Positions 82 to 5,484 of a stretch of 25,125 bases of DNA are shown piece by piece; the stretch's first letter is position 1; each line of letters begins with the position of its first letter. The stretch is from a virus. Below the pieces are notes generated by a model. That model was not told the origin of the DNA, ran no database searches, and was given only the letters and a program-made list of their open reading frames with translations. The position numbers and the translations under genes were made by a program. The stretch is taken from the IMG/VR virus record IMGVR_UViG_3300034198_006791, positions 1 through 25,125 of that record; one strand, 5' to 3'.

Positions 82-636
82 TTATTTACGGAAGACAAAG
101 AGTTCGTAATCGTAAGAAACGTAATCATAGTCGTAAGAAAGTTCCCGAGCTACGGAATCCCAATCGATATGATGATAAAGGGGATTGTCATCGTTAATTG
201 CTCCCATACCTTCATAATACTCTTGAGCAAAGTCTTTTTCAGAATCAAATCGACCGTAAAAATTATCATCAAAGGAACGTTTATCTTCAATCCCATTTTC
301 TTTGAGAATGTCGATAAACTCTAGAACCGTTTCATGATCCCAAGTACGACCGAAACGGTCGTCAACTACGTCGTACAAACCTTTATCATCATCACTTAAG
401 TTATCGTAAGAATCATCCTCAACATCGCTATCTGTGACCGGGACAACACCCTTAGCCCTAAGAAGCTCAGTATAGAACTCTGTATAAAGAGCCTTGCCGT
501 CACTATTGACGTAGCCTGCATCTTTAATCATGTCTGTACGTGTAAGCTCTTGACGATTAACAAGGGTCATTTTATCGTCAACAAAGTCAACAAGAGATTG
601 ACCGGTAAGCATGATGGGAAGAGTTGTGGTGGACAT
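82..636 (-). CDS. Acidic protein with cyAbrB-like N-terminus and ArdA-like antirestriction C-terminus
   Basis: 184 residues. Residues about 8-66 resemble the cyanobacterial AbrB-like (cyAbrB) domain: LTGQSL at 10-15, then TRTDMIKDAGYV (32-43) and YTEFYTELLRAKGV (51-64), which fit the family pattern LTGKALL...S..D....CGY...FY.ALL.AKGV. The rest is very acidic. I count about 44 Asp/Glu against 18 Lys/Arg over the whole protein. Residues about 134-182 (DFAQEYYEG, then IDWDSVARELSYDYDY and a final VF) resemble the C-terminus of ArdA, a DNA mimic that blocks type I restriction enzymes. A role in protecting phage DNA at entry is inferred, and the N-terminal module could direct it to host AbrB-type regulators or DNA. 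It is the last complete gene on the left. ATG start with no clear Shine-Dalgarno. It could instead be an unrelated acidic phage protein with chance resemblance. Confidence 0.6.
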   Translation of the reverse strand: MSTTTLPIMLTGQSLVDFVDDKMTLVNRQELTRTDMIKDAGYVNSDGKALYTEFYTELLRAKGVVPVTDSDVEDDSYDNLSDDDKGLYDVVDDRFGRTWDHETVLEFIDILKENGIEDKRSFDDNFYGRFDSEKDFAQEYYEGMGAINDDNPLYHHIDWDSVARELSYDYDYVSYDYELFVFRK

Positions 637-917: not shown

Positions 918-992
918 TACCCTGCACAGGACTCGAACCTGCAATGGTACGGATTTTAAATCCGTTGCGTATACCAATTCCGCCAGCAGGGC
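918..992 (-). tRNA. tRNA-Leu (anticodon UAA) with unusually short variable region
   Basis: The minus strand folds as a full cloverleaf: acceptor GCCCTGC pairs with GCAGGGT (one G-U), the D-arm runs from GCG to CGC with the GGTATA loop, anticodon stem ACGGA/TCCGT holds loop TTTAAAA (anticodon TAA), and the T-arm is GCAGG-TTCGAGT-CCTGT. The discriminator base is A, as for leucine, and CCA is not encoded. Acceptor, D-arm and anticodon arm closely resemble bacterial tRNA-Leu(UAA). However, only six bases (ACCATT) separate the anticodon stem from the T stem, where leucine tRNAs normally carry a long variable arm. Total length is 75 bases. It lies between the 75-aa and winged-helix-like genes and may supplement UUA decoding during infection. 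Confidence 0.88.
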
Positions 993-3677: not shown

Positions 3678-3718
3678 GGTCCACCCTCCCTCCCCCTGTA
3701 TACGGAGGGGATTGGACC
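3678..3718. repeat. Nested inverted repeat with G-rich minus strand at the end of terL
   Basis: GGTCCA (3678-3683) pairs with TGGACC (3713-3718), and inside it CCCCT (3693-3697) pairs with AGGGG (3706-3710). Between the left arms lies a pure pyrimidine run (3684-3697), so the minus strand carries GGGGG, GGG and GGG runs separated by single A residues. A further GGGGG on the minus strand at 3661-3665 could complete a four-run set with a long loop. The structure begins at the terL stop codon. The base pairs are directly visible; function is not. Confidence 0.45.
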
Positions 3719-5454
3719 TAAACCCAGGTGGGGACTGACTTTTTGTTTGCCAAACCTCTAGCCTTTTGTCTTTGGGGTAAATCCATCCCCAAAACCATGT
3801 GGTTAGCAGCAGATTGAGGATCGTCTTTCCATGTGTCTAGCATGTCTTGCCAGTCTTCCATCTTCTTTAATTTGACCGTCTCATAGGCTGAGATAGCCAT
3901 AGCTTCAGTAAAATACTTCACTCCTTGAGCTAGACTATCCAATCTGTCGTCGTGTTTGACTGCGCCCTTCTCCCGACACATCCTGGACATCTGGTAGAAA
4001 AGCATGTAAAGCAGCCTTTCCTCAGGTGCTTGATCTTTATTGGAGGCGTAATCCCACTCGACAACTGATCTATTGACAACAAGTCTGTGTTGGTTCATGA
4101 CAGGCTCTAAGGCATCAATGATCCTGTCTTCCTTACGGACATTAGCCCGTACTTCTTCTACATCAATAGCCTGTTTAGTCTGCTGTAGGTGCTTTTTAAA
4201 GAGTTCAGCGACGATACCATCACCAAAGTTGGTCTCAATCAGGAGCTTAGTGACGTTGTACTTCTTACAACCCCGAAGGATGTCTAGAAGTGTGTTATCA
4301 CTATAGCCATCACGGTAAGCACGGATTTCATGGACATATAAGAAGCCGTTCTTTTGACTTATGAAGGTAGCTGCTGTTTCATCTGATCCCCTACCAGACG
4401 GGTCAATTGAGCAGATCGTCTCAGTGTAAGGAGTCCACTCTCCTTGAAGCTGCATCGGGGAATAGAAATAATCACCCGGTAGGCCAACTGTAGGGAGATC
4501 CTTGAGGCAGTTACGAGGATCGCTGCACCACACCACAGCATCAGGTGCTTGGGTTGGGTTAACAGCGGTAATAACGAGGTCTGAGAACTTAAGTGGGAAC
4601 TTCTCTGCATCACTTAGGGTCGTATCCAGTTGAAACTGGAGCATAAAGTTGCTTCGACCCATAGATGATTCTCGTTCAAGGAGATCATCATCGGTAAAGC
4701 GATCAGGATCTGTAGGTGTCCACTCCTCAGCACCATTATCAATGTCTTCAACCAGTTGTGGGGCAAGTAATCCTTCATACTGAGAGAGTTTATCCTTACG
4801 TGGGTAGCGAGATGTCCAAACAAATGGACGGTAGTTACGTTCAGCTAGCTTTCGATAGATGGTGAAGGTGGTCTGTGGGGTACCAAGGTACATAATCCGA
4901 GACTCCTTCTTAGGTGTCAAGATGGATTCAGCTTCGGTACACAGTTGAAGGAGTTTCTCCCTCATCAGTTCAGTCATTGAGTTACCAGGAACCTCAACGT
5001 CATCAAGAATCATCAGGTCAGCACGACTACCAGTTAACTGACCAGTAATACCAACTGACTTTACTGAGGGTGCTTGGTGGGGAGAACAGTTAACATCAAA
5101 GGAGATACGTGACCAACGAGCATCATCACTCTTTGGTCTAAGGTGAGCTAACCACGGTGTCTCAATGATCAGCTTCTGTAGGAAGATCGACATGTTGTCT
5201 GCACGTTCCTTGGAAGCCGAAATGATCATGATCTTCTTCTCAGCATCGTTGAACAACGTCCAAAGAACAAACGCTCCAGTGATCCAACTCTTACCGACTC
5301 CTCGGAAGGCTTGGATCTGAAGACGTTTAGGACCGTTTTGGAGGTAGTCAGCAATAGCATACTGAGCACGGGTAGGTGATGGGAGGTCTAGCTGCTGCCA
5401 AAGAGCTTGAAGAAAGAGCTTAAAATCGCCTTTAAGGGCCTTTAAAACGTCCAT
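3718..5454 (-). CDS. terL: Large terminase subunit (T7 gp19-like DNA packaging ATPase/nuclease)
   Basis: 578 residues from the ATG at 5452-5454, close to T7 gp19 (about 586). A TTG at 5484 would add ten residues, but it abuts the upstream terminator. The N-terminal ATPase has Walker A FRGVGKSW (50-57), Walker B LMILDDVE (147-154, with catalytic Glu154) and coupling motif LGTPQT (190-195). The C-terminal RNase H-like nuclease has CSIDPSGRGSDETA (348-361, Asp351), Glu407 in LLIETNFGDG and HDDRLDSL (501-508). The enzyme docks on the portal, pumps DNA into the prohead and cuts concatemers. It follows the 100-aa gene after a strong hairpin terminator, so it may need read-through or its own promoter. 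No good ribosome site is seen at the ATG. Confidence 0.97.
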   Translation of the reverse strand: MDVLKALKGDFKLFLQALWQQLDLPSPTRAQYAIADYLQNGPKRLQIQAFRGVGKSWITGAFVLWTLFNDAEKKIMIISASKERADNMSIFLQKLIIETPWLAHLRPKSDDARWSRISFDVNCSPHQAPSVKSVGITGQLTGSRADLMILDDVEVPGNSMTELMREKLLQLCTEAESILTPKKESRIMYLGTPQTTFTIYRKLAERNYRPFVWTSRYPRKDKLSQYEGLLAPQLVEDIDNGAEEWTPTDPDRFTDDDLLERESSMGRSNFMLQFQLDTTLSDAEKFPLKFSDLVITAVNPTQAPDAVVWCSDPRNCLKDLPTVGLPGDYFYSPMQLQGEWTPYTETICSIDPSGRGSDETAATFISQKNGFLYVHEIRAYRDGYSDNTLLDILRGCKKYNVTKLLIETNFGDGIVAELFKKHLQQTKQAIDVEEVRANVRKEDRIIDALEPVMNQHRLVVNRSVVEWDYASNKDQAPEERLLYMLFYQMSRMCREKGAVKHDDRLDSLAQGVKYFTEAMAISAYETVKLKKMEDWQDMLDTWKDDPQSAANHMVLGMDLPQRQKARGLANKKSVPTWV

Positions 5455-5484
5455 ATAAGGGAATATACCTGAGTGGAGAAACAA

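Follow-up and report, generated by a model that had tools for sequence, protein, structure and literature searches.

The gene P0001 encodes a fusion of the N-terminal domain of cyAbrB with the acidic C-terminal part of ArdA, which is a new form among ArdA-type DNA mimics and suggests a cyanophage decoy aimed at the protein by which the host packages, and silences, both its own and foreign DNA. P0001 lies at the far left end of a 25,125-base virus record that bears the late genes of a T7-like cyanophage; "the window" below means this whole 25,125-base stretch. The initial annotation had called a gene of 184 aa at 82-636, and this call was confirmed and assigned to the minus strand, for which no strand had been given earlier. 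All motifs quoted for it, namely LTGQSL, AGYV, YTEFYTELLRAKGV, DFAQEYYEG and IDWDSVARELSYDYDY, were found in P0001. The features of the gene and its surroundings in the window are as follows.

82..636, minus strand: P0001, complete gene (open reading frame call), 184 aa, cyAbrB-N / ArdA-C fusion
445..612, minus strand: cyAbrB N-terminal domain, residues 9-64 (profiles, alignment and structure model)
517..519, minus strand: codon of Ala40, at the site of the Cys of most host cyAbrB proteins (CGY motif; alignment)
397..444, minus strand: linker with lowered structure-model confidence, residues 65-80 (AlphaFold2 model)
85..396, minus strand: acidic ArdA-like C-terminal core, residues 81-184 (Pfam, charge, fold and profile comparison)
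106..315, minus strand: stretch matched by the Pfam ArdA family PF07275, residues 108-177
918-992, minus strand: tRNA-Leu with anticodon taa, on the upstream side of P0001
2649-3293: ThyX (Pfam / PHROGs matches)
3718-5484: terminase (Pfam / PHROGs matches)

A 100% identical copy of P0001 was found on a second IMG/VR contig, 3300032233_000782. Because this contig extends past the end of the window, where it encodes a regulator, an integrase, a single-subunit RNA polymerase and a Gp2.5-like protein, the fusion gene could be placed between ThyX and the RNA polymerase. The same placement was seen in DSL-LC07 and S-B28, and in S-CBP1 and WH11-B the fusion gene also lies upstream of the RNA polymerase. 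The fusion gene is an early-region gene, ahead of the RNA polymerase, where T7 has gene 0.3. At L118:10691-11572, as in S-CBP1, an integrase and a small regulator directly precede the RNA polymerase of this T7-like cyanophage. In the window, the minus-strand neighbor at 1248-1529 encodes a 93-aa protein that matches DUF3574 at 44.3 bits; its match to an S-adenosylmethionine lyase model is weak (23.2 bits, cut-off 28). It has relatives in S-CBP1/2/3 and in Prochlorococcus myophages. Since phage T3 counters restriction with an S-adenosylmethionine-degrading enzyme, this neighbor may, by analogy, be a second antirestriction gene.

The relationship of the N-terminal domain to cyAbrB was examined in both directions. 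Local alignment of P0001 with the best host cyAbrB gave a score of 83, whereas none of 2000 shuffles scored above 49, and the profile of the phage domain matched a profile of 65 host cyAbrB proteins at 97.7% (E 2.5e-12, for a single comparison), as against 2.7% for lone ArdA proteins in a control. A model built from podophage domains only, leaving out P-TIM68 gp074 as a sequence closer to cyAbrB, was searched against ten cyanobacterial genomes in six frames; the best matches had E-values of 3e-12 to 1e-10 in 10/10 genomes, and those of the best places that were read were cyAbrB genes. This search and the shuffle test together refuted a chance origin of the N-domain similarity. In the reverse search of 50,697 phage records with host cyAbrB, only cyanophages were matched at E-values up to 0.5 (P-TIM68, 9e-11; B23, 3e-6; WH11-B and S-B28, 0.01; S-CBP1, 0.5), and the matches were confined to the first 50–55 residues of cyAbrB. 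The initial cyAbrB queries served only as probes, and the conclusions rest on the real sequences retrieved with them. Three helices are predicted in the domain (residues 12-27, 33-39 and 51-61), and residues 1-66 carry a net charge of only -2. In a structure library, the N-terminal part of the predicted full-length model matched a phage entry that bears the name AbrB family regulator; the full-length fold search of solved structures yielded none matched by this domain.

The CGY-motif Cys is present in 56 of the 65 host cyAbrB proteins and in all eight fusions of a second clade, and podophage fusions mostly carry Ala at this site, as P0001 does at Ala40. We infer that the site is probably C34 of cyAbrB2, within the N-terminal domain, whose glutathionylation disrupts DNA binding (PMC13421787). 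The initial annotation had proposed an AbrB-like pattern at residues 8-66 and a comparison of the two halves with Pfam. The homology was upheld at residues 9-64 by the shuffles and profiles, and PF07275 matched residues 108-177, but P0001 lacks the DNA-binding AbrB-like domain, PF14250 having no match in the window at E-values up to 10. This null result is no argument against the N-domain match, because PF14250 models only the C-terminal half of cyAbrB, from about residue 50 into the C-terminal region. Judged by these alignments, the shared part is the N-terminal domain of cyAbrB minus its DNA-binding half. P0001 as a cyAbrB regulator was ruled out by the missing PF14250 domain.

ArdA is a known DNA look-alike that disarms DNA-cutting enzymes, and its well-established target is type I restriction. 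The Pfam ArdA model scored P0001 marginally (27.3 bits, cut-off 27, E 6.4e-6), and the match covered profile positions 87-151 of 155. The majority of podophage relatives fell under the cut-off, and three further tests of the ArdA assignment were therefore made. The C-terminal core profile matched lone ArdA-type proteins of large cyanophages at 99.1% and two annotated gammaproteobacterial phage ArdA proteins at 96.0%, and cyAbrB, as a control, at 0.1%. For the core as modeled by AlphaFold2 (pLDDT 93, pTM 0.80), the best PDB fold match was the solved ArdA structure 2W82 (probability 0.97, TM 0.54, E 0.045), the next unrelated match having a probability of 0.10; this match supports the ArdA assignment of the predicted fold, although with its weak E-value it is no proof alone. 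Many matches of the full predicted model among predicted viral structures were named antirestriction. As had been noted at the outset, the part following the N-terminal domain is strongly acidic, with a net charge of -24 over the 118 aa of residues 67-184, and the family median was -21.7 per 100 aa. Searching PDB sequences with the profile of the family returned weak chance matches only, no NCBIfam family was matched, and the Pfam and PHROGs matches at E-values up to 1 included no Ocr family, although an Ocr model may be absent from these libraries. Scattered Pfam matches, among them Radical_SAM, T9SS plug and RNase E/G, were dismissed because they lay under threshold and differed from member to member. 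The ArdA-like C-terminus of the initial annotation thus stood by the Pfam score and by the structure comparison with 2W82, except that the profile alignment places only the C-terminal part of ArdA in P0001 and no full-length ArdA. By the same alignment, the cyAbrB domain occupies the place of the N-terminal domain of ArdA.

Both halves were present at full length in 62 of the 74 related podophage open reading frames examined, the others being truncated or divergent. The division into two parts that was proposed earlier holds, as do the two family assignments. The N- and C-terminal motif sets are near-invariant among relatives, and the N-terminal domain is retained across divergent ones. The second fusion clade comprises proteins of about 155 aa on contigs of up to 205 kb. 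Given this spread in podophages and a second clade, the fusion is, on comparative grounds, not accidental. Related cyanophage ArdA cores elsewhere bear unrelated N-termini, and P-TIM68 carries an ArdA-like gene (52234-52605) and a stand-alone N-domain gene (55868-56026) on the same strand, 3.3 kb apart. Synechococcus phage B23 gp246 (L283:1465-1893) joins a cyAbrB N-terminal domain to an unrelated C-terminal part. From these three arrangements, the ArdA core and the cyAbrB N-terminal domain are separable modules that were joined. In an N-domain tree with few columns and long branches, a supported branch (97/96) separated the fused domains from those of the hosts and the lone ones, which agrees with a single putative fusion event without proving it. 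Lone N-terminal domains of 52 aa were seen in the Prochlorococcus myophage P-TIM68 (gp074, L037:1504-1662) and on a viral contig (L357:3001-3159), and are 83% identical. cyAbrB genes were also observed on viral-classed contigs (L264, L266, L268-L270, L273-L276, L278, L280 and L281), and almost all of them include the PF14250 half; they are either regulators carried by phages or host DNA classed wrongly as viral.

The candidate target is widely encoded: cyAbrB was found in 42/42 genomes of a freshwater-type genus (G001, G005 and G011-G050), with 2–11 matches each, although this genus may not be the host of the contig. cyAbrB1 and cyAbrB2 interact and have similar binding regions, and cyAbrB2, which covers AT-rich tracts as well as 80 of 125 insertion elements, was likened by its finders to H-NS and Lsr2 (PMC11368403). 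In P0001 the cyAbrB domain replaces the N-terminal domain of ArdA. In the simplest functional reading, P0001 would be a DNA mimic directed at cyAbrB, relieving silencing and perhaps blocking type I restriction too, a reading to which we give, by analogy, just short of an even chance. P0001 would encounter host cyAbrB soon after DNA entry via the shared N-terminal domain, by co-assembly or docking; the ArdA core, as a mimic of B-DNA, would occupy or block the DNA-binding surface of cyAbrB, and cyAbrB, as an H-NS-like coat of AT-rich and foreign DNA, would be titrated or kept away from phage DNA. The same core may additionally block type I restriction enzymes. Such a mode of action would resemble that of T4 Arn, an anti-H-NS mimic, combined with that of H-NST, a truncated poison of the complex. 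We infer this reading from the homologies with their controls, the modularity, the conservation, the early position, the presence of cyAbrB in hosts and the precedents. Its weak step is what the N-terminal domain of cyAbrB does, for which no report was found in the literature searched; oligomerization of cyAbrB2, likewise counted against it, is biochemically still putative (PMC11368403).

Further points weigh against a cyAbrB-directed function. The cyAbrB domain might be no more than a neutral scaffold, the Pfam ArdA score is marginal with most podophage relatives lower, and the established type I target of ArdA is encoded by most freshwater-type genomes. In the main rival explanation, P0001 might be an ordinary ArdA antirestriction protein whose core blocks type I enzymes at entry, the cyAbrB domain merely serving folding, dimerization or solubility; we regard this as doubtful, though far from remote. 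It agrees with the ArdA homology and acidity of the core, with the T7 0.3-like gene position, with type I HsdS over the cut-off in 32/42 genomes of the freshwater-type genus (again, perhaps not the contig's host) and with the sufficiency of single-domain sArdC proteins (PMC12548430). A neutral spacer, however, would not be expected to be a host-derived domain conserved in two phage groups, nor to occur as a stand-alone gene in P-TIM68, and of the 61 genomes of Prochlorococcus type (G009 and G051-G110) only 8 gave an HsdS match. The antirestriction and cyAbrB-directed functions may be compatible in one protein.

It is improbable, in our estimate, that the N-terminal domain docks at host promoters, with cyAbrB or some other protein as its partner, while the core blocks RNA polymerase or DNA-binding proteins and so redirects transcription. 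Ocr inhibits RNA polymerase (PMC7064336), and in E. coli the expression of genes is changed by ArdA proteins (PMC13300388), but these precedents are general and not specific to P0001. That the cyAbrB or ArdA similarity reflects chance or convergent composition is very improbable indeed: the Pfam ArdA score lies barely above threshold and PF14250 is unmatched, but the two-way profile searches, shuffles, negative controls and structure matches are concordant.

The cyAbrB-directed reading has parallels in known systems. The phage DNA mimics Arn and Ocr counter H-NS, and T7 gp5.5 does so by binding the oligomerization domain of H-NS (PMC6936261). H-NST of genomic islands is a truncated H-NS consisting of the oligomerization domain only (PMC7074111). 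Going by the titles of references 19 and 20 of PMC13300388, ArdA ColIb-P9 reportedly activates H-NS-dependent genes, and the ArdA N-domain reportedly inhibits H-NS repression. The earlier proposal that restriction evasion and interference with a host regulator are combined in one protein is, by analogy with these precedents, plausible. P0001 shares the acidic DNA-mimic C-terminal core with ArdA (PF07275; Tn916 ArdA, 2W82) by sequence and fold match, but has a cyAbrB N-terminal domain where ArdA has its own N-terminal part. The sArdC proteins, single-end small ArdA proteins that shield phage lambda against type I enzymes (PMC12548430), likewise consist of the C-terminal part of ArdA only, yet they stand alone, whereas the core of P0001 is fused to a host-derived domain. 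With cyAbrB1 and cyAbrB2 it shares the N-terminal domain of about 55 aa, but it is without PF14250, and the CGY Cys is replaced by Ala in P0001 and most podophage members. T4 Arn and T7 Ocr are, like P0001, acidic early phage proteins proposed as DNA mimics against a nucleoid protein, but no sequence relation to P0001 was found, and neither is described with a nucleoid-protein domain. H-NST similarly keeps a nucleoid-protein N-terminal domain and lacks the DNA-binding domain, but belongs to another fold family, and the DNA-mimic core is additional in P0001; the closer analogue of H-NST is the lone P-TIM68 gp074.

The literature searched contained no publication describing a cyAbrB-N / ArdA-C layout, in agreement with the initial annotation, which knew of no such protein; some fusion members are already annotated "antirestriction protein", with the N-terminal domain unmentioned. 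Cyanophages may have built a dedicated counter-silencer against cyAbrB, with decoy and address label in one protein, where elsewhere these are separate genes; by analogy we think this possible, at somewhat less than an even chance. Enterobacteria silence foreign DNA with H-NS, and P0001 makes directly testable the question of whether cyAbrB is a cyanobacterial silencer of foreign DNA. P0001 is also a probe for the role of the cyAbrB N-terminal domain. For ArdA-type mimics, reported against both H-NS and restriction enzymes, a swap of the N-terminal module may explain the choice of target. The view of cyAbrB2 as an H-NS-like nucleoid protein is itself only a recent proposal (PMC11368403), and the counter-silencer reading, if true, would imply that cyAbrB is an antiviral xenogeneic silencer.
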